Assembly: GCA_029555415.1 (NCBI GenBank)
Contig: JAKPSI010000018.1
Location: forward strand, 248,001-312,000
Source of the DNA: Bacteroidota bacterium
GTDB taxonomy: Bacteria > Bacteroidota > Bacteroidia > Chitinophagales > Chitinophagaceae
Length of the DNA: 64,000 nucleotides
Reading direction: 5' to 3'
A program made the translations under genes and the position numbers. How positions within the stretch are numbered: the stretch's first letter is position 1; every line of letters begins with the position of its first letter. The notes beneath the pieces were generated by a model that was not told the origin of the DNA, made no database searches, and was given only the letters and a program-made list of their open reading frames with translations. Shown here piece by piece: positions 6,665 through 56,305 of the stretch.

Positions 6665-6828
6665 TTGAATTCTGAATGCTGAGTTTTGAATGATCGCCTA
6701 TTTATACAGTTTCAATAATTGTATAAATAGCATCAATCGGGATGTATGTACGCAATTCATGCAATAAGTGTGACAACAACTTTAGTGAGCCAACATTCAA
6801 AATTCAAATCTCAAAATTCAAAATTTTT
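6665..6828. repeat. Heptad array pair, inverted (TTGAATT / AATTCAA)
   Basis: Four 7-bp units (TTGAATT, CTGAATG, CTGAGTT, TTGAATG) at 6665-6692 start three bases after the mqnC stop. They are mirrored by CATTCAA, AATTCAA, ATCTCAA, AATTCAA at 6794-6821, just before the next gene. The two halves can pair as a long A/T hairpin with about 100 bp between them. They fill both ends of the mqnC-DUF3817 gap. Confidence 0.8.
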
Positions 6829-6838
6829 TCCCTTTATT

Positions 6839-7144
6839 ATGACGCTTCAAAAAACATTTAGCTGGTTCAGGAAAGTAGCTATTGCCGAAGGCATCTCCTT
6901 CGTTGCACTCGTATTCATTGCAATGCCCCTTAAATATCTTGCGAAGATCCCCATCGCTGTTACCATTGCCGGCTCCATGCACGGCATTCTTTTCATCAGC
7001 TTCATCAAACTCGCCTGGGACCTGAAAGTGGCGGGCGATAAATCCGCCATCTGGTTCGGAAAAGCCTTTCTGGCTTCGGTGCTGCCTTTCGGCACTTTCT
7101 ACATGGATCATAAGGCGTGGAAAAGGGAAGCTGCCAGCTGTTAG
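6839..7144 (+). CDS. DUF3817 family small membrane protein
   Basis: A 101-residue protein with two to three predicted membrane segments (VAIAEGISFVALVFIAMPLKY; VTIAGSMHGILFISFIKLAW; FLASVLPFGTFYMD). The pattern EG-SF...MPLKY...G-HG-LF...LPFGTF matches DUF3817 integral membrane proteins, whose role is unknown. I chose the ATG at 6839 because upstream codons lie in the A/T heptad array. The last codons are read from the heptad array itself: the stop TAG at 7142-7144 is part of an AGCTGTT unit, so the C-terminus may have been set by the array. Confidence 0.8.
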   Translation: MTLQKTFSWFRKVAIAEGISFVALVFIAMPLKYLAKIPIAVTIAGSMHGILFISFIKLAWDLKVAGDKSAIWFGKAFLASVLPFGTFYMDHKAWKREAASC

Positions 7145-7163
7145 CTGTTAGCTGTTAGCGGGC
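7129..7163. repeat. Heptad array AGCTGTT, overlapping a gene 3' end
   Basis: Five contiguous 7-bp units: AGCTGCC, AGCTGTT three times, AGCGGGC. The stop codon of the DUF3817 gene (7142-7144) lies inside it. Confidence 0.85.
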
Positions 7164-8088: not shown

Positions 8089-8120
8089 AGGTGGTCGTTT
8101 ATACCAATACTTCACTATCT

Positions 8121-8234
8121 ATTACCTATTACCTATTACCTATTACCTTTTACCTCTTACCTCTTACCTCTTACCTCTTACCTCCTACCTTCTCCCTCTA
8201 TTATCAATTATCCATTATCATTTATCCATTACTT
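8121..8234. repeat. Long two-type heptad array (ATTACCT then ATTATCC)
   Basis: At least ten units of the ATTACCT/CTTACCT type run in exact register from 8121 to 8190, with TCTCCCT at 8191-8197. Five ATTATCA/ATTATCC units follow from 8200 to 8234. It lies between two convergent genes. The last unit (ATTACTT) supplies the stop codon of the minus-strand cytochrome gene (8229-8231). Six-frame ORFs reading repeated YLLP across it are artefacts. Confidence 0.92.
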
Positions 8235-9200
8235 CGGGTATTTCTCGATCTTATTCGTCACTGCCGGTATCGTTTTCACCCAGGCATAGATCGCTTTCAG
8301 ATCGCTGTCGGTCATACCGGCCATAGCGGGTAAAGGCATCACGGTATTTTCTTTACCCGGATTGAAATTATAATTCTTCTCTTCACGTAACGGCAGGAAC
8401 TTATTCAGGAAGCGCTCTTCCGTCCATGCACCGATACCTGTTGCTGTATCAGAAGTGATGTTGGAAGCCACTACTTTGAAGGTTCCCAGATCGAACAAGT
8501 GACCACCGGCGAACAACTTGGTCATATCAGGCGCACCCTGTGGTGTGAGCGGCGTATGGCAATCCGTGCAATGTGCCATATTACCAAGGTAAGCGCCATA
8601 AGCTACTTTATTGGTTTCGGCCGGAAGTACATTCGCATCAACAGAAGCCTGTAAGGCCGGTGCAGGATAGGCCATAGCGATCGGGATCATCAGCTGTCTG
8701 GCCGGTATTTTATTTTTGATCGGTTTCAGTGTACGGATATACGCCACAATGGCCAGCAGATCAGATTTCGCCATTTGGTTGTACCGTGCATAAGGCATAA
8801 TGGGGAACAGCGTATCGCCAGCCTTATTGATACCGTGTGTCATGGCACGCAGGATCTCATCATCCGTCCAGGTGCCGATACCGGTCTCAGTATCCGGAGT
8901 GATGTTTTTCGCATACACTTTTCCCGGAACACCCACGCCAGGTCCGAATTCAAAACCTCCCTGACCTTCGGTACCCACGACCACAGGTCCGGCGAACTTG
9001 GTAATATCACGGGTGCTGTGGCAGTCGAGACAGGCCGCCACATGATTGGCCAGATATTCACCGCGATCCAGTATTTTTTTGAGAGAATCCTCTTTGCCTG
9101 AAGCAACAGGCTTGTTGGAAGAACTGTTATTACAAGAGGGGGTTAATAACAAAAGGACAACTACACTGCATAAAGCAGTAAGGGCAAGCAACTTTTTCAT
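8229..9200 (-). CDS. Exported di-heme cytochrome c
   Basis: A 323-residue exported cytochrome with two class-I c-type domains. The heme sites are ACLDCH at residues 57-61 and HCTDCH near 213-217. Axial-methionine candidates lie in PIMPYAR and TVMPLPAMAGM. The start MKKLLALTALCSVVVLLLLTPSC is a lipoprotein-like signal; its lipobox (TPSC) is loose, but the cysteine at 23 is a plausible lipid anchor. The domain order resembles the small diheme cytochromes that accept electrons from periplasmic dehydrogenases. No dehydrogenase partner is adjacent, so the donor is unknown. Confidence 0.88.
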   Translation of the reverse strand: MKKLLALTALCSVVVLLLLTPSCNNSSSNKPVASGKEDSLKKILDRGEYLANHVAACLDCHSTRDITKFAGPVVVGTEGQGGFEFGPGVGVPGKVYAKNITPDTETGIGTWTDDEILRAMTHGINKAGDTLFPIMPYARYNQMAKSDLLAIVAYIRTLKPIKNKIPARQLMIPIAMAYPAPALQASVDANVLPAETNKVAYGAYLGNMAHCTDCHTPLTPQGAPDMTKLFAGGHLFDLGTFKVVASNITSDTATGIGAWTEERFLNKFLPLREEKNYNFNPGKENTVMPLPAMAGMTDSDLKAIYAWVKTIPAVTNKIEKYPK

Positions 9201-23850: not shown

Positions 23851-23900
23851 CCGCGGATCAACGCAGATTTGCGCAGATTTGCGCGGATTAGCGCAGATTA
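23851..23900. repeat. 10-bp tandem array GCGCAGATTA
   Basis: Five contiguous 10-bp units: CCGCGGATCA, ACGCAGATTT, GCGCAGATTT, GCGCGGATTA, GCGCAGATTA. The period is one helical turn. The array at 56141-56210 is related in reverse complement. Confidence 0.85.
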
Positions 23901-23910
23901 GGCAGAACTG

Positions 23911-36312: not shown

Positions 36313-37086
36313 ATGAATTATTTCAGTCCTGAAACAGCCGCCGCCCGCTATGCCAAAGGCCGGCCCGATTTTCACAGCAATACGATCGGGCATATCCGGG
36401 AAAAACTCGGACTGGAACAAAAGCTCAGCAAGGCGCTTGATGTGGCTTGCGGTACCGGACTCTCCACTAAAGCATTGCTGGAGATCGCGGAAGAAGTTTA
36501 CGGAACTGACACTTCCGAAGCCATGCTGGCACATGCGCCTGAAAAAGACCGCATCCATTACGGTATCGCGCCGGCTGAACAGCAGCCCTTTCCTGATCAC
36601 ATGTTCGATCTCATCACCGTCTGCTCCGGTGTACACTGGTTCCGGATCAACGCCTTCCTTGCTGAATCCGCGCGTATCCTGAAAAGCCGCGGCTGGCTTG
36701 TATTGTACGAGAATCATTTCATCGCTGAAATGGACGGGCATCCGGAATTCAGAAACTGGTTCCATGAACGTTACCTGCAGCAATTCCCTTCCCCGCCCCG
36801 CAATAATGATTATCCCTGGAACAATGAACACCTCAACACTTTAGGATGGGAACTGACCGGAACAGAAACATTCACCAATCCGATCCGGTTCAATAAAGAA
36901 GAACTGATCCTTTATTTCAGCACACAGAGCAATATCATTGCTGCAACGGAACAAGGCCGCGCAACGTATACAGAAGCAGAGGCCTGGTTGAATAATGAAT
37001 TGTCGCCATTCTTTTCAGACAATGAACAGAAACAGCTGATCCATTATGGGAACTGGATAAAATACATTAAGAAAATGGAGAATTGA
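36313..37086 (+). CDS. Class I SAM-dependent methyltransferase
   Basis: 257 residues. Motif I ALDVACGTGLST spans 41-52, followed by VYGTDTSEAML (motif II acidic region), FDLITVCSGVHWF (motif IV) and ILKSRGWLVLYEN. The N-terminus FSPETAAARYAKGRPDFHSN resembles the UbiE/YjhP-like group that starts Y-RPxxP. The substrate is unknown; small molecules are likely. The stop TGA at 37084-37086 is inside a heptad array (AATGGAG/AATTGAT), so the last residues KKMEN are partly array-encoded. Confidence 0.9.
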   Translation: MNYFSPETAAARYAKGRPDFHSNTIGHIREKLGLEQKLSKALDVACGTGLSTKALLEIAEEVYGTDTSEAMLAHAPEKDRIHYGIAPAEQQPFPDHMFDLITVCSGVHWFRINAFLAESARILKSRGWLVLYENHFIAEMDGHPEFRNWFHERYLQQFPSPPRNNDYPWNNEHLNTLGWELTGTETFTNPIRFNKEELILYFSTQSNIIAATEQGRATYTEAEAWLNNELSPFFSDNEQKQLIHYGNWIKYIKKMEN

Positions 37087-37205
37087 TAATGGAGAATGGA
37101 GAACAGGTGAGCAGGTAATAGATAATAGGTGATAGGTAAAAGGTAAGAGAAGAAGAAGAAGAATTGCAAGATGCTTGTAAGAATGTACTTGTGGCTAGCA
37201 GCTAT
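37074..37205. repeat. Composite heptad element (AATGGAG, then AGGTAAT, then CTAGCAGC segment)
   Basis: Units AATGGAG, AATTGAT, AATGGAG, AATGGAG run in exact register from 37074 to 37101. AGGT-starting units follow at 37105, 37113, 37127, 37134 and 37141. A segment TTGCAAGATGCTTGTAAGAA near 37164 and CTAGCAGCT near 37195 complete it. The same order occurs in reverse complement at 63295-63416. It begins inside the methyltransferase gene. Confidence 0.85.
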
Positions 37206-37966: not shown

Positions 37967-38764
37967 GTGAAGTCGCTGATTAAAATTATATTGATCATTA
38001 TCGTCATCCTGTTCATGTCCGGTTGCCGTTACGGGTCTTCCAAACATCCAGCATCACCCATTGATTCCGGTATCCACGTAAAAGAGCTTGAATCCTATCC
38101 GCAGATCCCCGGTAATGCGCTGAATGGTATAACGGAAACATTGGAACTGGATTATATGGTTTGGGGATGTTCCTGCGCTAACTGGATCAGTCCGGTTGAC
38201 AGGATAAAATACGAGAACGACCATCTTGATCAGCATTGTATTTTCCTTGAACCCGCAGTTGATTCTTTATCTCTTCCTGTTTATTTTCAACCAGAACGCC
38301 ACCGGGTGCGCGTTACCGGTCAATTCTATAAACTGCCCTGCTGGCCTAAGGGTGAACCTAAAACAGAAGAGCAACTTGCGAAAGCGCCGGTATTCCACTA
38401 CACAAGCATTCAGGTTCTTCAATCCCCGGAAGTACTTGAAACAAAAAAAGATACGACCATCAGTGTGTGGTACGGAGGGGTGGCTTGTCATTGCGCACAA
38501 TGGGTACTCTCTGAAACCGGTATAGGTACAGATAATGATAAATACACCTGGCTTGAAAAAGGAAAAGAAGATCTGATTGATGCGGACACTTTATATGATG
38601 GTACCAATTTCCCAATTCATCTTAGACTAAAAGGACATTTTGTGTCAGAGAGTGGACTTCCAACAGGCTACATACTAACCTATAAAGGCGATGACCCCGG
38701 TTTTGTGTTTCGTTATACAAGTATCCGTGTACTGAAACGAGGCGACTCTAAAATCAGTCAATAG
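37967..38764 (+). CDS. Hypothetical lipoprotein with two tandem homologous halves
   Basis: 265 residues from a GTG start, four bases after the SRPBCC stop. Lipoprotein signal LIKIILIIIVILFMSGC with lipobox MSGC. Two similar halves: YMVWGCSCANWISP ... YFQPERHRVRVTGQFYKLP ... FHYTSIQVLQ, and VWYGGVACHCAQWVLSE ... PIHLRLKGHFVSESG ... FRYTSIRVLK. Each half has a C-x-C-A-x-W motif (CSCANW, CHCAQW) that could bind metal or form disulfides. No family is recognised. The stop TAG at 38762-38764 is the first TAG of an AGTCNNT heptad array. Confidence 0.78.
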   Translation: MKSLIKIILIIIVILFMSGCRYGSSKHPASPIDSGIHVKELESYPQIPGNALNGITETLELDYMVWGCSCANWISPVDRIKYENDHLDQHCIFLEPAVDSLSLPVYFQPERHRVRVTGQFYKLPCWPKGEPKTEEQLAKAPVFHYTSIQVLQSPEVLETKKDTTISVWYGGVACHCAQWVLSETGIGTDNDKYTWLEKGKEDLIDADTLYDGTNFPIHLRLKGHFVSESGLPTGYILTYKGDDPGFVFRYTSIRVLKRGDSKISQ

Positions 38765-38790
38765 TCTTTAGTCATTAGTCGGTAGTCAAT
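38756..38790. repeat. Heptad array AGTCNNT at a gene end
   Basis: Five contiguous units: AGTCAAT, AGTCTTT, AGTCATT, AGTCGGT, AGTCAAT. The lipoprotein stop (38762-38764) is inside. A short mirrored part, GACTATC GACTGCT, lies at 38821-38834, so a hairpin is possible. Confidence 0.88.
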
Positions 38791-38871: not shown

Positions 38872-40866
38872 ATGCTCAGAATATTCCCACTCCTCGCAGG
38901 TATTCTATCCTTCATTTCATTATCTGCCCAAACCGACACCACCTACTATTCCGTTGCCGCCAAAGGCAAGATCAAAGGCGGACAAAAGATCTGGCGAACC
39001 AGCGAAAATGAATTTTATTTCACCTATCAATTTAACGACCGCGGGCGGGGTGATAGTGTTACCGGCCAGATCAGGACAGATAAGAGCGGACTTATCACTT
39101 CCGCGGAAAGTCACGGAGTGGATTACTACAAGAATCCCTGGGCTGAGAATTTTTATCGCAGGGGCGATTCCGTTTATTGGGTGATCAATGGCGACAAAAA
39201 AGCAAAAAAATTCAATGGTGATCTGTATGCTCCCGTTAATCCGCCTGCGGCATTTGAATTGGTCCTGAAATATGCGCTCAGTATGCCTGACAAAAGAGTT
39301 GCGCTGCTTCCGGAAGGTCATCTGCACGCGGAAGAATCCGGCTCATACAATATCAGTCTTAAAGGATCATCCCTGACACTCCGGCTCTTCAGTTTGTATT
39401 TCGAACCTTCTCCTCAACCCGTATTTGTCTGGATGACAAATGATCTGCATTTTTTCGCCTTAGCCAATTCATGGAGTTCAGAGATCGCCAAAGGCTATGA
39501 ATCCTGGGCCGATACACTGATCGTACTGCAGGAAAAAGCCGGCAATGGTTATTACAAAAGAGAAGTGGAAGAACACTCCAAACCCGCTTCAGGACACTAT
39601 TTCCTTGAACACGCTGCCTTGTTCGAATCCGCCACGGCCACCGTTAAAAAAGATATGACCATTGAAATTAAAAATGGTCTTATCACTGCGGTATTCCCAT
39701 CTTCGTCACGCAAACCTTCTAAAGCGGATTCCGTGATCAACTGCAACGGCAAATTCCTCATGCCGGGTTTATGGGACATGCATGGACATTTCAGCAAAGG
39801 AACCGGTTCCAGTTATCTGGCCGGCGGCGTGACCCACTTAAGGGATATGGGTAATGACAAGATCCTGCTCACCTGGAAACAACAGATCAGCAACAATTCA
39901 CTGATGGGACCCGATATCAGTTATTTGTCAGGCTTCATTGATAAGGAAGATCCCTTCCAGGGGCCGACCGGTTCCATCATCACTTCACTTGATGAAGGCT
40001 ATAAAGCCATAGCAGATTTTCATCGTCTCGGATATCAGCAGATCAAACTCTACAGTTCCATCGATCCCGAATGGGTGAAACCCTTGGCTGCCAAAGCCCA
40101 TCAGCTGGGCATGAAGGTTTGCGGACATATCCCCGCTTTTATGACCGCTGAGCAGGCCATCAAAGCCGGCTATGACGAGATCACACACATGAATTTCATC
40201 ATGCTGAATTTCCTGGGCGATTCGATCGATACCCGCACGCCGGCCCGTTTCCGTGTAGTGGGCGACCGGGCAGGAAAAATCGATGTCAACAGCAAAGCCA
40301 TGCTTGATTTCATCAAACTCATGAAAGAGAAAAAAGTGGCACTCGACCCGACCATGAATGTCTGGAAAGGTATGTTCAATGAATTCAAAGGTGATACTGC
40401 CGCATTCCTGAAACCTATAATAAACTGGATACCGGAATCACAACGCTCAGAGATCGCCAACCAGAATCCTTTCGGAAGTGAAGAACAAAAACCCGCTTAC
40501 AAAGCCGCCTGGGCCAATATGCTGAAAACACTGAAGCTGTTATATGATAACGGCATCCTGCTGGTGGCCGGCACCGACGGTGGCTTGCAACTGGCCGTAC
40601 ATCATGAACTGGAGATCTATCAGGAAGCAGGCATACCTGCCAATCAGGTCCTGAAGATCGCGACCTGGAATGCAGCACAGGACTGCAACCTGTTGAAACG
40701 CTTTGGTTCCATTTCACCCGGTAAAGAAGCTGATCTCATCCTGATCGACGGTAATCCTGTTGATAACATCAGCGATATCCGCAGGATCGAACTGGTGATG
40801 AAGAACAAAAGATTTTATTTACCTAAGGTATTATATGCGGCACAGGGCTGGAGCTATTATTACTAG
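38872..40866 (+). CDS. Exported amidohydrolase family protein
   Basis: 664 residues. Signal peptide LLAGILSFISLSAQ. An N-terminal beta-rich domain (about 25-240) precedes the amidohydrolase barrel: WDMHGHFSKG (H304-x-H306), GVTHLRDMGND, KVCGHIPAFM, EITHMNFIML and VAGTDGGLQLAVHHELEI. The composite beta-sandwich pair (ITAVFPSS ... GKEADLILIDGNPVDN) is typical of imidazolonepropionase/prolidase-like members. Its substrate is unknown; exported relatives act on peptides or cyclic imides. The stop TAG at 40864-40866 is provided by the first unit of a heptad array. Confidence 0.9.
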   Translation: MLRIFPLLAGILSFISLSAQTDTTYYSVAAKGKIKGGQKIWRTSENEFYFTYQFNDRGRGDSVTGQIRTDKSGLITSAESHGVDYYKNPWAENFYRRGDSVYWVINGDKKAKKFNGDLYAPVNPPAAFELVLKYALSMPDKRVALLPEGHLHAEESGSYNISLKGSSLTLRLFSLYFEPSPQPVFVWMTNDLHFFALANSWSSEIAKGYESWADTLIVLQEKAGNGYYKREVEEHSKPASGHYFLEHAALFESATATVKKDMTIEIKNGLITAVFPSSSRKPSKADSVINCNGKFLMPGLWDMHGHFSKGTGSSYLAGGVTHLRDMGNDKILLTWKQQISNNSLMGPDISYLSGFIDKEDPFQGPTGSIITSLDEGYKAIADFHRLGYQQIKLYSSIDPEWVKPLAAKAHQLGMKVCGHIPAFMTAEQAIKAGYDEITHMNFIMLNFLGDSIDTRTPARFRVVGDRAGKIDVNSKAMLDFIKLMKEKKVALDPTMNVWKGMFNEFKGDTAAFLKPIINWIPESQRSEIANQNPFGSEEQKPAYKAAWANMLKTLKLLYDNGILLVAGTDGGLQLAVHHELEIYQEAGIPANQVLKIATWNAAQDCNLLKRFGSISPGKEADLILIDGNPVDNISDIRRIELVMKNKRFYLPKVLYAAQGWSYYY

Positions 40867-40942
40867 TCGGTAGTCTTTAGTCGTTAGTCAGTATTGTATT
40901 GACTACAGACTAACGACTATCGACTAATGACTAATGACAATC
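40865..40942. repeat. Inverted heptad array providing stops for two convergent genes
   Basis: Left half: AGTCGGT, AGTCTTT, AGTCGTT, AGTCAGT (40865-40892). Right half: GACTACA, GACTAAC, GACTATC, GACTAAT, GACTAAT, GACAATC (40901-40942). The plus-strand stop (40864-40866) lies at its left edge and the minus-strand stop (40931-40933) in its right half. The halves can pair as a long imperfect hairpin, which may act as a bidirectional terminator. Confidence 0.92.
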
Positions 40943-41911
40943 CAGCCATTTTCTTGCGGCATCCAGTACACGATCCGTTCCGGCAACTGGCTGCACCGGA
41001 AAATCGGGAATAAGTCTGTCCGGAAAAGCATGTCCGTTCCGGTCTTTCATAATGGCGATCGTGATGATCAACATTGCCCCATCACTCAATATGGTATTCG
41101 TATTACCGGTGAGCAATCCGCCGGAACGTCCGCCGAAGGATCTTGCATTCGGATTGGTCAGCAATGCGATCGCCGCCCTTTCGCCGGAACTGCCGGTTGT
41201 ACTGTCCATCAGCACCGCGACCGGCAATTGTTTTTGGCGCAGGTCATGCTGATATTGAGTAGGGAAAGACCACCCGCCGCCTTTTTCATTCCTTTCAAAA
41301 AAATAGCCGCCCCTGCTCCAGGTGCTCCCAACGGGCTTTCCATGTCTTCCATAATTACTCCACAATAATCCTTCCGGGATCAGTGGGATCAGTCCGGCGA
41401 TCATCGGACCCTGTGCACCACCCCAATTGCCCCGCAAATCAATGATCCAGCCTTTGAGTGCATGACGGTCCAGGGTCATTATCTGTGATAAAAGTGAATC
41501 CGCCCATATCATCATCATTTTCTCAGGTGACAGATAGTAAGGCACTTTAATGTATCCGATGGAATCATCAAGTAGTTTTGAGGAAGGATAAATGATCTTC
41601 GTTGTATCGAAACGGATCTGGCTGGAAACTGAAGGCGGCAGGATATGCATATGGATAGCTCCTATGTTCCGTAACATCGCTTCAATGGCGGGATAAATAT
41701 CCTTCGTGGATTCCGCGGAGTCCAGCATTGGCATCACCTGCCTTCTTGCGGCCGGAAGATCGATGCTGTCAATAAAGATGTATTGCTTCTCTATGATCCG
41801 GCACACTTCATCCATATACCGCTTCACGGTCGCCGAAGGCTGCGCCAGTACTGCATTTGCAGCTACACATAAAAATGAGCACAATAAAATTTTCCGGAAA
41901 TAAGGTTTCAT
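40931..41911 (-). CDS. S41 family (tail-specific protease-like) exported peptidase
   Basis: About 326 residues from the ATG at 41911; an ATG at 41926 would add five. Signal peptide KILLCSFLCVAANAVLAQ. The S41 core is DSIGYIKVPYY, WIIDLRGNWGG, then the catalytic-serine region DSTTGSSGERAAIAL and ARSFGGRSGGLLTGN, SDGAMLIITIA, FPDRLIPDF. There is no PDZ domain, so it resembles short periplasmic or surface S41 proteins. It shares its 3' array with the convergent amidohydrolase gene; the stop and last codons WLDCH reach into it. Confidence 0.9.
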   Translation of the reverse strand: MKPYFRKILLCSFLCVAANAVLAQPSATVKRYMDEVCRIIEKQYIFIDSIDLPAARRQVMPMLDSAESTKDIYPAIEAMLRNIGAIHMHILPPSVSSQIRFDTTKIIYPSSKLLDDSIGYIKVPYYLSPEKMMMIWADSLLSQIMTLDRHALKGWIIDLRGNWGGAQGPMIAGLIPLIPEGLLWSNYGRHGKPVGSTWSRGGYFFERNEKGGGWSFPTQYQHDLRQKQLPVAVLMDSTTGSSGERAAIALLTNPNARSFGGRSGGLLTGNTNTILSDGAMLIITIAIMKDRNGHAFPDRLIPDFPVQPVAGTDRVLDAARKWLDCH

Positions 41912-42015
41912 GCCGTGTAACAACATGACTTAAATTAAGTATTCCTTTTGGAAAAAAAGATGAAGATCAGAAAACAGAAAGTTAAAACATCAGATACTTC
42001 TGCTAAGCCCCACCT

Positions 42016-42091
42016 CTTACCTTTAACCTTTTAGTTATCACCTATCAACATTATCCATTCTCCATTATCAATTCTCAACTATTAACTAAAA
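42016..42091. repeat. Two-type heptad array at the end of the SNF2 gene
   Basis: Eleven contiguous 7-bp units in exact register: CTTACCT, TTAACCT, TTTAGTT, ATCACCT, ATCAACA, ATTATCC, ATTCTCC, ATTATCA, ATTCTCA, ACTATTA, ACTAAAA. The SNF2 stop (minus strand, 42082-42084) is inside. The order of the two unit types matches 8121-8234. Confidence 0.9.
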
Positions 42092-45000
42092 AGGTATTCA
42101 ACATCCTCCCGCGTGAGCGTCTTCACAAACCCACTATCATCCGTGATCAGCTCTTTGGCAAGAGCTCTTTTCTTTTCCTGCAGCTGAATGATCTTATCCT
42201 CGATCGTATCCTTACAGATCATGCGGTAGGCGAAGATGTTCTTGGTTTGTCCGATACGGTGCGTCCGGTCGATCGCCTGCTGCTCCACCGCCGGATTCCA
42301 CCAGGGATCCACGATGTACACATAGTCGGCCGCCGTTAAGTTCAGACCCACACCACCCGCTTTCAGTGAAATGAGGAACACGCGTACCGTAGGATCGTTC
42401 TGGAAACTCTGGATCGCTTTTTCACGGTCTGGCGCTGAAGTGCTGCCATCGAAGTATTCATATTTCACACCCAGCTCATCCAGCTTGGCACGCACCAGCG
42501 CCAGCATGCCCAGGAACTGGGAGAACACAAGTGCTTTGTGGTTACTGATGTTTTCCGTGATCTCACGTGCCAGCTCATCCAGCTTGATGGAATGATTCTC
42601 GAATTTCTCTTCTTCATTCAGGATCGCCGGTGAATCACAGATCTGGCGCAGCTTCATCAATCCCTGCAGGATCGTCAGCTGCGATTTCTGGATGCCCTGC
42701 TCCTGGATCGTGCCCATGATCTTGTCGCGGAAGTCATTGCGGTACGCGTCATAGATCTTACGCTGCTCATCTTCCATTTCACACCACAACACCATTTCCA
42801 GTTTTTCCGGAAGATCCCGCGCCACCTGCTCTTTGGTACGACGCAATATGAAGGGATATAATATTTTCTTGAGATGTTCTTTCCTGTCCTGTTCACCGAA
42901 TTTATCGATCGGCATCGCGAATTCCTGACGGAAGAACTCCATCGTACCCAGCATGCCCGGGTTCAGGAAATTCATCTGCGCGAAGATGTCGAATGTATTG
43001 TTCTGCAGCGGGGTACCACTCATGCACAAACGATTTTTGGCATTGAGCAGACATGCCGCCTTCGTCACCTTACTGGAAGGATTCTTGATCGCCTGACTTT
43101 CATCCAGCAACACATAATCGAACTCCACACTCATCAGTAATTTGATATCACTCCGCAATGTTCCATAAGTGGTGATGGTCACATCATGGTCCACCAGTTC
43201 ATCCTTGATCCGCGTACGCTGTCCGCCGTGGTGTATCCTGTAAGTCACGCTGGGCGTGAATTTCCGGATCTCATTCTCCCAGTTGTAGATCAGCGTCGTG
43301 GGACAAACCACCAGCGCCTTCAGTTTGCCGTGTGTGGTCTTGAAGTATTCCAGGAACGACAGGGCCTGAACGGTCTTACCAAGACCCATGTCATCAGCCA
43401 GGATGCCGCCCCATTTGATATCGGTCAGATAATTCAGCCACTGATAACCTGCCACCTGATACGGACGCAATACATGCTCCAGATGGTCCGGCGGCGGTAT
43501 CTCTTTTATTTTATTGAACTCACGCAGTTTCTCGTATTTCTCTTCCAGCTGCACCACCAGTTCTTCTTCATTGCGTGTTTCATATAATTCATCCACCACA
43601 CTCAGGTGATAACGGGATAATTTGAGTGAATTCGTTTTGCCTTCCCCGACACGGAACAGCAATGAATATTTCTTCAGCCATTCTTCCGGCAGAATACCCA
43701 GTGTACCGTCATTCAACTGCACGAACTGCTGCTTGTTGGCCAGCGCACGCTTCACTTCCGCCACCGTCACCTGCTGATCACCGAATACGATGTCCACGCG
43801 GGCATCGAACCAATCGGTATTGCTGCTGATGAAGATCTTCGTTTGCGGCTTGGCCGTATTGAAACGGAAATTTTTCAGTGCTTCAAATCCGAACACCGGT
43901 GTCTTCATATCCTTCATCGCGTCCACGAACAGGAAGAACCAGTTGTTCTTCAGCACATCGGTGCCTTTCAGCGCCAGCGTGCCCGCCTCCTCGTTATTCA
44001 CGAAATTGGAATGCAGGTTCTGTAACTGCTGCATGAACATGTTCTCTTTATCACGGTTGCGGTGCACGATCACCACTTTATCGCCCTGCGGCACCACCAG
44101 TTCATCGCGGTCACGCGTCTTGGTCTCATATCCTTTATAAGAGAATGAAGGCTGGAACACCAGATAATCCCCCTTCTCCACCAGGAACAGATTCACATCA
44201 GGATCGCCTTCCTTGATCTCATGGACCAGCGATTTATCAAAATCCACTTTATAATCACGGGTCAGTGGCAGAATGAATTGTGTAAGGCTTTTGGTCCATT
44301 CATCAGACTGGACCTGCATTTTACCGGATGGCAGGAATTTCTCCACCAGGTGGATCACTTCGCTGTTCTTCCATAAATGGATCTGGTTATTGTACAGGAA
44401 GAATAACGGACTCGCGCTTTCATTATCGCCTAATTCATATTCCATTCCGCCTGCCTGCACACGGCAAAGCACGGAGTAATGGGAATTCTTCTTCACGAAG
44501 AAATGTGGTCTCGCCTCATCCGCGATCAGTTGCAGCGGCTCGAGGTTATTGGTCTTGAATGCTTTTTTATCAGGCAACAGGAACACCAGCGCGTTCGGCG
44601 CGTATTCAATGAACAACTTGCGCAGCTTCGGCAGCATATATTCCGCCATCAGTTCCTTCGTCTCATCCGGCAGATCATCCTCTTCCTGATGGATGATGTT
44701 TTCCCAGATCCCGCTGAACGGAGAGTTCCGGCTGATGTATTTATTGATCTCCGTCTCCTGCAGTTTGCGCAGTGCGGTCAGCAATTGCTTGTCATCTTCC
44801 GGCAAGGGATCCGCGTTCACATAACGGCTGATATCCACCTTTTCCACTTTACCCACGAATTCACGTCCGGCTTCATCCGCTTCACCCATCACTACATCAA
44901 TGGTGAAATGCGGATAGCTTTTTTTATTGAAGTTGAACACCACACCCAGTCTGTGCGTTGTTTTAGCGGGTTCTTTGATCTCTTCTTTCTCCGGCTCCAT

Positions 45001-45840
45001 CGTCTGCAACGGCAACAATACCTGTTTCGGCATCACCGATGGAGTAACGATCACGCGCTTGATGGTCGAATCCAAAACACGCAGGAAAGGTTTACCTTCT
45101 TTATACGCGAATTCGAATTTTCCTTTCAGGTCGTCGGACAGCGAATAACCGTATGCTTCCAATAGTTTATTCTTTTCTTTATCCCAGTTACGGATACTGT
45201 CAAAGTAACCGGCACCGGACTGATGCAGTAACTGCAGGAACACGATCACTTTTGGCAAACAGAGCGGATGTTCCTTATCCTCGAACTCGCAACTGGTATC
45301 AAAATTCCTTTCTTCATTCTTCCGGATGATCACTTTCCAGGGCTTGCCTTCCAGTGTCACCGTGGCTTTCACCATTTCATCCTGCGCAAAATCGATCGTG
45401 GCTTTATGTGTACGCAGGAATTTTTCCGCATCATTGAAAATATCAGGAGAGGAAAGCAGTCGGAGTGATTTCAGGTCGATCTGCTTCATCTTGGCAGTAG
45501 TATGTCGCTGATCGTATTCGGCTTCTTCGGTCTTCAGTTGCCCTTTATCGATCATCTCCTGCAACTGAAAGAGCGACGCTGCTTCATGCCTGCAGATATC
45601 ACCCAGGTTGTACGGACAGGTACAACGCAGGGAAAGACCCTTGGGGTCCCTGATCTTCTGGATGTATACTTTGTAAAAGGTGGAATAGCTGTCGTCTTTT
45701 ACACGGAACGAAGCGGATCCGAACAGATTGTCATACTCGACCAGTTCTGAAAAACCGATCGCATGGATCTTCTTTCCCCTGCGGATCACTTCATCAGTTC
45801 CATGGGTATAGACGTACTTGAGCAAGTGCGGTAAAGCCAT
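42082..45840 (-). CDS. SNF2-family helicase/translocase with SWIM zinc finger
   Basis: 1252 residues. SWIM finger near the N-terminus: CTCPYNLGDICRH (C73, C75, C83, H85). A long central region (about 200-780) is of bacterial SNF2-associated type. The ATPase core includes ADDMGLGKTVQAL (motif I), YVLLDESQAIKN (motif II, DESQ), CMSGTPLQNN (motif III), VFLISLKAGGVGLNL and WWNPAVEQQAIDRTHRIGQT (motifs V and VI). It is a double-stranded DNA translocase probably used in chromatin or repair transactions. It is a long single gene without partners. The stop falls within a heptad array. Confidence 0.95.
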   Translation of the reverse strand: MALPHLLKYVYTHGTDEVIRRGKKIHAIGFSELVEYDNLFGSASFRVKDDSYSTFYKVYIQKIRDPKGLSLRCTCPYNLGDICRHEAASLFQLQEMIDKGQLKTEEAEYDQRHTTAKMKQIDLKSLRLLSSPDIFNDAEKFLRTHKATIDFAQDEMVKATVTLEGKPWKVIIRKNEERNFDTSCEFEDKEHPLCLPKVIVFLQLLHQSGAGYFDSIRNWDKEKNKLLEAYGYSLSDDLKGKFEFAYKEGKPFLRVLDSTIKRVIVTPSVMPKQVLLPLQTMEPEKEEIKEPAKTTHRLGVVFNFNKKSYPHFTIDVVMGEADEAGREFVGKVEKVDISRYVNADPLPEDDKQLLTALRKLQETEINKYISRNSPFSGIWENIIHQEEDDLPDETKELMAEYMLPKLRKLFIEYAPNALVFLLPDKKAFKTNNLEPLQLIADEARPHFFVKKNSHYSVLCRVQAGGMEYELGDNESASPLFFLYNNQIHLWKNSEVIHLVEKFLPSGKMQVQSDEWTKSLTQFILPLTRDYKVDFDKSLVHEIKEGDPDVNLFLVEKGDYLVFQPSFSYKGYETKTRDRDELVVPQGDKVVIVHRNRDKENMFMQQLQNLHSNFVNNEEAGTLALKGTDVLKNNWFFLFVDAMKDMKTPVFGFEALKNFRFNTAKPQTKIFISSNTDWFDARVDIVFGDQQVTVAEVKRALANKQQFVQLNDGTLGILPEEWLKKYSLLFRVGEGKTNSLKLSRYHLSVVDELYETRNEEELVVQLEEKYEKLREFNKIKEIPPPDHLEHVLRPYQVAGYQWLNYLTDIKWGGILADDMGLGKTVQALSFLEYFKTTHGKLKALVVCPTTLIYNWENEIRKFTPSVTYRIHHGGQRTRIKDELVDHDVTITTYGTLRSDIKLLMSVEFDYVLLDESQAIKNPSSKVTKAACLLNAKNRLCMSGTPLQNNTFDIFAQMNFLNPGMLGTMEFFRQEFAMPIDKFGEQDRKEHLKKILYPFILRRTKEQVARDLPEKLEMVLWCEMEDEQRKIYDAYRNDFRDKIMGTIQEQGIQKSQLTILQGLMKLRQICDSPAILNEEEKFENHSIKLDELAREITENISNHKALVFSQFLGMLALVRAKLDELGVKYEYFDGSTSAPDREKAIQSFQNDPTVRVFLISLKAGGVGLNLTAADYVYIVDPWWNPAVEQQAIDRTHRIGQTKNIFAYRMICKDTIEDKIIQLQEKKRALAKELITDDSGFVKTLTREDVEYLFS

Positions 45841-56140: not shown

Positions 56141-56210
56141 AATGATCAGTGTAATCTGTGCTGATCTGTGTCAATCCGTGTGAGTCCGCGTTAATCCGTG
56201 TTAATCCGTG
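56141..56210. repeat. 10-bp tandem array TTAATCCGTG
   Basis: Seven contiguous 10-bp units from AATGATCAGT through GTAATCTGTG, CTGATCTGTG, TCAATCCGTG, TGAGTCCGCG to TTAATCCGTG twice. It is related in reverse complement to the array at 23851-23900. It lies in the 446-bp asnS-rho divergent gap. Confidence 0.88.
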
Positions 56211-56305
56211 TTTCCCAACTCCCTGACTATCAACACCCACCACCCAAAAAAACATTGCATAATTTTTGTTTTTACAAAATTCAGCGTATCATTGCAACGG
56301 AAACG

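Follow-up and report, generated by a model that had tools for sequence, protein, structure and literature searches.

The window analysed here is a 64,000-nucleotide stretch (C22:248001-312000, C22 being our handle for contig JAKPSI010000018.1) of the draft genome of a Bacteroidota bacterium of the Chitinophagaceae (GCA_029555415.1; hereafter G000; 3.97 Mb in 139 contigs). It contains two convergent genes, an amidohydrolase gene and a Peptidase_S41 gene, which both close inside facing arrays of a heptanucleotide repeat, TAGTCNN. Heptad arrays of this type are neither a chance occurrence nor a local one: they recur at gene ends of the same genome, and relatives carry arrays that are composed of other letters and have the same period and place. 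We tentatively favour the explanation that the arrays form a lineage-specific sense-strand 3'-end tract, in which sites repeated in a 7-base register probably serve for binding in 3'-end formation. The features of the locus are as follows.

38872..40866, plus strand: amidohydrolase gene (open reading frame (ORF); Pfam Amidohydro_1, 3.2e-15); its TAG stop at 40864-40866 is the first repeat unit
40931..41926, minus strand: Peptidase_S41 gene (ORF; Pfam, 9.1e-19); its TAG stop (plus-strand CTA, 40931-40933) lies within the minus array
40864..40889, plus strand: array in sense orientation to the plus gene, with four TAGTC cores spaced 7 bases apart (Tandem Repeats Finder, TRF)
40901..40938, minus strand: array in sense orientation to the minus gene, with five TAGTC cores (plus-strand GACTA; TRF)
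40890..40900: spacer between the arrays, 11 bases core to core
40864..40926: predicted hairpin from both facing arrays, -35.6 kcal/mol, z -6.4

The units of the plus array are, in order, TAGTCGG, TAGTCTT, TAGTCGT and TAGTCAG. TAGTC cores start at positions 40864, 40871, 40878 and 40885 and GACTA cores at 40901, 40908, 40915, 40922 and 40929, and the stop codon of the minus gene sits in the last of the five GACTA units. The spacer measures 8 bases if the units are written AGTCNNT and 11 bases between the TAGTC and GACTA cores. The original prediction, made from the letters and the ORFs, held that both stop codons are supplied by facing arrays; the letters and the ORF ends confirm this (TAGTCNN x4 on the plus side, x5 on the minus side), and TRF detects both arms. 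The proposal that the array can fold as a hairpin also holds at this locus, since none of 200 shuffled sequences folded equally well (opposite strand: -34.4 kcal/mol, z -6.9). The stem is flanked by a T-run on neither side, and the window yielded no match to Rfam 15 at the gathering score.

A three-unit pattern (TAGTCNNTAGTCNNTAGTC) matched the genome 139 times, 64 and 75 times on the two strands with overlapping matches in longer arrays each counted, and its backwards control matched neither strand. Our main counts were obtained from 452 kb of this genome (C22:1-312000, C7:1-120000 and C53:1-20000) and from a relative, G003. Because C7 and C53 were chosen among the contigs matched by the pattern search, this sample is not strictly random; the stretches of two further relatives, G144 and G077, and a larger sample of G000 were selected for holding arrays. 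Genes were called by a simple ORF scorer, so that stop positions are firm and start positions are rough. At the chosen threshold, the 452 kb contain 61 arrays of period 7 and 0, 7, 1, 4, 5, 0 and 0 arrays of periods 5, 6, 8, 9, 10, 11 and 13, respectively. The period-7 arrays were found in 25 of the 186 post-stop stretches, in 8 of 144 stretches before tandem starts and in 3 of 58 mid-gap stretches, and were detected neither before the 86 divergent starts, nor at the 186 ends of coding sequences (CDSs), nor in shuffled sequences. The corresponding numbers for G003 are 15/161 post-stop, 4/111 before tandem starts, 2/84 before divergent starts, 3/62 mid-gap and 0/161 at CDS ends. On the 452 kb, the check proposed with the original prediction came out in its favour: the arrays show enrichment at stops but at neither starts nor mid-gap positions, and the outcome that would have spoken against it, arrays equally common elsewhere, was absent.

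When arrays were placed at random in the same gaps, 16.7 of them fell within 20 nt of a stop in G000, as opposed to the 29 observed, and the same excess was obtained for G003 (18 versus 9.1), G144 (13 versus 5.8) and G077 (15 versus 6.1). These are four genera, each with different units, and in none of them was the observed number reached in 1,000 placements; the same test revealed no enrichment at start edges in any of the four. Among the gaps of at least 40 bases in G000, arrays are present in 9 of the 22 convergent and 31 of the 170 tandem gaps and in none of the 44 divergent ones; divergent gaps with an array number 3 of 43 in G003, 1 of 15 in G144 and 1 of 11 in G077. In the larger, partly array-selected sample of G000, 74 arrays lie no more than 40 nt from a stop, and 71 of them start between positions -18 and +17 relative to the end of the stop. 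A same-strand gene end is located upstream of 37 of the 47 TAGTC arrays with at least three units, within 28 nt in 31 cases, and none of the 47 lies between two starts. Where a TAGTC array of at least two units supplies the stop codon, this is the first TAG in 11 cases, the second in 2 and the third in 3. Inside arrays lie 16 of the 375 stop codons called in the 452 kb, and 8 of these 16 are TAG, while TAG accounts for only 38 of the 375 overall. Arrangements like that at the locus, with arrays within 20 nt of both stops, occur in at least 6 of 82 convergent gaps (counted from 45 of 46 two-array gaps in an 828-kb sample partly chosen for TAGTC). The arrays are also polar, the G-richer strand running outward from the gene in 68 of the 71 arrays scored at stops, and no G excess is seen in post-stop DNA of G000 that lacks arrays (-0.017).

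Where two TAGTC cores lie 14 bases apart, the core between them deviates at 18 of 550 positions (97% conserved), whereas the spacers differ at 168 of 220, so that the two spacer bases are free; the middle unit needed no match, and the count is therefore fair to it. Same-strand TAGTC pairs occur 153 times at a distance of 7 and never at 5, 6 or 8-13. None of the 153 internal spacers in G000 starts with C, and identical neighbouring units are rarer than in shuffles (4 of 94 versus 12, P 0.004). A putative left border, CAGTC, is seen in 15 of 59 arrays, and TTCTAAG, which also has near variants, follows 9 of 59 as a putative border on the other side. Little sign of whole-array copying between sites was obtained: 1 of 47 spacer trigrams recurs, and spacer bigrams recur slightly more often than in shuffles (89 compared with 70.8, P 0.03).

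These data bear on the strongest rival explanation, a slippage or otherwise neutral period-7 process, in which heptad microsatellites arise from a period-7 slippage bias and survive only where the DNA is free to vary, just after stops, being purged from promoters and coding sequence. The dominance of period 7 (61 arrays versus 0-7 at periods 5, 6, 8-11 and 13), the absence of arrays from CDS ends and from the divergent gaps of G000, the lineage-specific letters and the rapid turnover are all what such a process predicts, and polymerase slippage is an idea cited in the consulted sections of Rehm 2015 (PMC4692102). Units are near-perfect in G077 and at most of ten named loci inspected. In G144, C is allowed in the spacer and identical neighbours (25 of 78, 12.4 in shuffles) exceed the expectation, although the number falls to 14 of 67 (11.2) when one uniform array is removed. 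By these measures, the arrays of G144 match or exceed a slippage microsatellite and those of G000 do not, in which the conserved core, the free spacers, the exact phase and the scarcity of identical neighbours rule out simple slippage for TAGTCNN. The outward polarity also speaks against it. We therefore consider slippage rather unlikely as an explanation of the arrays in general, ahead of the other rivals discussed below. The design of a five-base core plus two free bases is cleanest in G000. On contig C1 of G077, a CTGATNN x3 pattern has 165 matches, nearly all of them perfect CTGATAG or CTGATAC, which gives this heptad-rich relative a slippage-like look that G000 does not have.

To place the arrays in time, we compared the C-termini of three of the 16 own genes whose stops are overlapped by TAGTC arrays, and of one gene of G144, with those of relatives; all four have an ancestral stop position, to within three residues. 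The amidohydrolase ends in GWSYYY* here and, at the same residue, in GWSYFY* in G037, which uses TAA and has no array. The gene for MTHFR ends in VVRSL* here and in VVREL* in both G003 and G004; as the length is equal, the array extends over the final codons. In some other relatives the protein has one residue more, and the MTHFR stop of G008 bears a different heptad array of its own. The esterase is three residues longer here than in G008, and other relatives differ by a few. The G144 gene ends in GHEILK* within its array, and its congener G024 has GHNILK* followed by TAA and then by a hairpin and T-run (by eye), while the G213 homologue is two residues longer. Since the stop positions are old, with or without arrays in relatives, the arrays have been placed at existing gene ends, in separate lineages and with different letters.

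Arrays also follow genes that are not translated. In the sample of G000, CAGTC/TAGTC arrays start in sense orientation 5-6 nt downstream of 3 of 7 tRNA genes; two of these three genes are near-copies lying side by side, which leaves two independent cases. The remaining four tRNA genes have a hairpin and T-run downstream (by eye). The adjacent copies (L020:6638-6714 and 6783-6856, around 226.6-226.9 kb of C22) share the array start, and for one of them ARAGORN reports a four-base anticodon (ctta) and leaves the identity undetermined.

The tRNA flanks are relevant to the view put forward in the original prediction, that the array is maintained because it stops translation in all frames and on both strands. 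Its arithmetic is right, as 7 is 1 mod 3 and successive units put stops in all frames. All three frames are stopped on the gene strand in 24 of the 29 arrays within 10 nt of a stop, compared with 4 of 29 for the opposite strand, an excess that is partly due to the arrays containing the stop itself. A bias persists strictly after the stop, where 31 arrays have more stops on the gene strand and 7 on the other, with 6 ties, and the frequent use of TAG in array-borne stops also fits. Translation does not occur after tRNA genes, however, and in G077 all frames are stopped in only 7 of 15 arrays at stops on the gene strand versus 6 of 15 on the other; 5 of 13 such arrays hold more stops on the wrong strand and yet keep the G-rich polarity. 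Over 114 arrays from the four genera, G polarity prevails over stop polarity by 9 to 1 where the two conflict, and both are reversed in 9. Arrays on the start side, in the larger sample of G000, hold stops on the useless strand in 8 of 8 cases and on the gene strand in 2 of 8. The stops in all frames and the gene-strand bias are real, but an all-frame stop as the main function is weakened by the tRNA flanks, G077 and the conflict cases and appears improbable to us. The results argue that stop codons are not the main point of the arrays, and, because of the bias after the stop, a secondary translation-stop role may remain.

A further rival, that the arrays are the arms of hairpin terminators or of 3'-end hairpins, rests on the strong fold at the locus, and folding does extend to TAGTC convergent ends, with a median z of -2.44 versus -1.79 for array-less convergent ends. 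The fold of other array ends is weaker than that of array-less ends (-1.79 and -1.35), however, at -0.67 for TAGTC tandem ends and at -0.59 and -0.46 for other families, and the convergent gap at 8110-8235 of the window, which carries two heptad arrays, gave no fold. Duplexes between an array and its own gap were no better than those across gaps for TAGTC (P 0.91), other G000 arrays (P 0.27), G003 (P 0.78) and G144 (P 0.22), and were marginally better for all G000 arrays together (P 0.05) and for G077 (P 0.048). In G077, inverted arms find their match in the same gap (P 0.0002), and in G000 this tendency is marginal (P 0.05); the two adjacent tRNA copies have a heptad stem with a T-run (by eye). 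A T-run after the partner arm was present in 3 of 57 cases, which is below the background of 7.9%. The claim of hairpin folding thus stands at the locus and does not generalize to the own genome; as a general function it is unsupported in G000, G003 and G144, and we judge it slightly less probable still than the all-frame stop. Hairpins may matter at some sites, such as the gaps of G077 and the two tRNA copies.

Under the explanation that we favour, each arm at the locus would be a heptad tract that marks the 3' end of the gene it adjoins, and the inverted pair would exist because two genes, each with such a tract, converge. The tract is built from a fixed TAGTC core that recurs at an exact 7-base interval and leaves two bases free; it runs on the sense strand from the stop codon, or from just downstream of a tRNA gene, and may represent a row of sites for a putative RNA-binding or termination factor that acts in 3'-end formation. 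It would often stand where a hairpin and T-run would otherwise be found. The stop codon would simply be the first unit that falls in frame, and stops would appear in all frames because the cores bear them. A wider version, which we regard as doubtful, would be a lineage-specific heptad code at the 3' ends of transcription units in some bacteria, in which a row of sites in exact 7-base register is read on the sense strand by a factor, the letters vary, and period, place and polarity remain constant; this code would operate beside hairpin terminators and Rho, and after tRNAs too.

Several observations weigh against a signal of this kind. Ten of the 47 TAGTC arrays lie in antisense orientation relative to the closest gene end, and the G-richer strand runs outward near starts too (14 of 17); a 3' signal acting at the RNA level leaves both unexplained. 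Heptads were seen in the stretches of 5 of 20 relatives, and thus are not universal in the family. Among 23 gene pairs conserved between G000 and G003, 1 array is shared, 2 are present in G000 only and 3 in G003 only. Terminator-like hairpins were found at 5 of 67 array ends and at 28 of 191 other ends; this scarcity agrees with the favoured explanation and proves nothing, the contrast being non-significant (P 0.14). An inverted arm and a T-run come after the array at both of the adjacent tRNA copies (by eye), so that a plain hairpin terminator would suffice there.

The outward G-rich strand at both stop and start edges, which in the consulted sections of Rehm 2015 (PMC4692102) is also the rule in Xanthomonas and Nostoc, would fit another origin, namely that the arrays are scars of DNA-end extension, in which repeats were added outward, telomere-like, to broken ends at gene borders that were then joined. 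A small comparison leaned in this direction, as arrays were found in 0 of 8 conserved adjacencies versus 11 of 33 others (P 0.08). A second comparison, with G003, did not support it: arrays were present in 3 of 21 conserved, 0 of 3 broken and 6 of 33 one-sided adjacencies, and in 21 of 173 without an ortholog in the G003 part, although this comparison is weak, as it covers only part of G003 and includes just three truly broken adjacencies. Start edges are not enriched, and gene order at the repeats is stable in Rehm 2015 (PMC4692102). We consider such scars very unlikely.

A three-unit match was found in 57 of 394 genomes of the family, G000 included. Only G144 (126 and 105 matches) is as rich as G000, and its two listed congeners have none; TAGTCNN x4 occurs in at least 116 stretches of the named genomes. 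Besides the locus, the window contains the following arrays.

38756..38787, plus strand: TAGTC array overlapping the stop of the gene at 37967-38764 (TRF; TAG offset 0)
42049..42088, minus strand: array of a different heptad family, with a TGGATAAT-like unit when read on the minus strand; it overlaps the stop of the gene for an SNF2 helicase at 42082-45840
37071..37146, plus strand: a GGAGAAT and then an AGGTAAT heptad array, located at the stop of the gene at 36313-37086
7129..7159, plus strand: heptad array (AGCTGTT) overlapping the gene end at 7144
8116..8226, minus strand: two heptad arrays (plus strand: TTACCTC, then ATTATCA) in a convergent gap

Intergenic arrays of period 10 at 23862-23906 (CGCAGATTAG) and 56143-56212 (TAATCCGTGT) represent a second kind of repeat. 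Other structures accompany the heptads. A gap of 39 bases on C22 of G000 corresponds on C4 of G003 to a gap of 648 bases, which is filled by eight heptad arrays that are part of several near-copies of a longer repeat. An approximately 40-base spacer with inverted ends (NNTTCTAAG ... CTTAGNAC) stands between heptad arrays that belong to different families; a regular expression matched nine times, not all of them real, and its sites are the following.

C22, around 236.4 kb: inverted-end spacer of about 40 bases
L048:7838: the same
L049:10681, minus strand: the same
L051:6246, minus strand: the same

GC-rich palindromes (GCCTGCCTGCCGGCAGGCAGG; CCCGTCCGAACGG..CCGGGCGGGC) lie inside or beside heptad arrays at C22 (minus strand, 236281), L044 (minus strand, 7900), L054 and L042.

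The STRR (short tandemly repeated repetitive) sequences of cyanobacteria are heptanucleotide tandem repeats, and the arrays described here resemble them in this respect; the term also occurs in a passage of Rehm 2015 (PMC4692102) on Calothrix. The original prediction, which knew of no described link between heptads and stop codons, was mistaken on this point, as two reports contain one. In its consulted sections, Rehm 2015 (PMC4692102) describes heptads near or overlapping stops on the coding strand in Xanthomonas and Nostoc, considers transcript ends and leaves the function open. MacGregor 2015 (PMC4679880), likewise in the parts consulted, describes TAACTGA heptads in Beggiatoaceae, cyanobacteria and five Bacteroidetes, which stop all three frames in forward orientation and in some cases overlap ORF ends, again with the function left open. 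The GGGAATC and GGGGA(C/T)T heptads (PMC4692102) share with our arrays the period of 7, the intergenic location 0-50 bp from or overlapping stops on the coding strand, the outward orientation upstream of genes on the non-coding strand, the rarity between divergent genes, the occasional inverted pairs and a unit with variable positions (GGGANTN). The GGGAATC unit forms G-quadruplexes, however, and TAGTCNN does not, as its spacers reach GG at most and provide no runs of three or more G. The TAACTGA heptads (PMC4679880) are similar in period, intergenic location, all-frame stops in forward orientation, occasional position at ORF ends and sporadic distribution over lineages, but they are of a fixed unit and lie mostly upstream of start codons in BOGUAY. 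The repetitive extragenic palindromic (REP) sequences with GTAG tags (PMC3733652) are also dispersed and extragenic, and transcription termination has been proposed for them, but they are single palindromes of 20-40 bp and not phased direct repeats. The present arrays therefore belong to the intergenic heptanucleotide tandem repeats, given their period-7 excess, intergenic location near stops on the coding strand and rarity in divergent gaps, and TAGTCNN belongs to neither the GGGAATC quadruplex heptads nor the TAACTGA heptads.

Heptads at stop codons, as a general kind, were thus already known. The contrast between a conserved core and its free spacers, the arrays beside tRNA genes, the evidence that the stops are old and the comparison of stop with G polarity appear to be new here: none was found in the literature searched, which lies mostly outside subscription journals and was seen in part, and the tRNA flanks and the polarity comparison were not found in the consulted sections of PMC4692102. 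Earlier records of heptads near stops, from Xanthomonas, Nostoc and Beggiatoaceae, assigned them no function, and in G000 the parts of the problem (phase, core versus spacers, old stops and tRNA flanks) can be separated, which makes an old question testable piece by piece. If the arrays are a true 3'-end signal, they would explain how some genes end without a recognised terminator.
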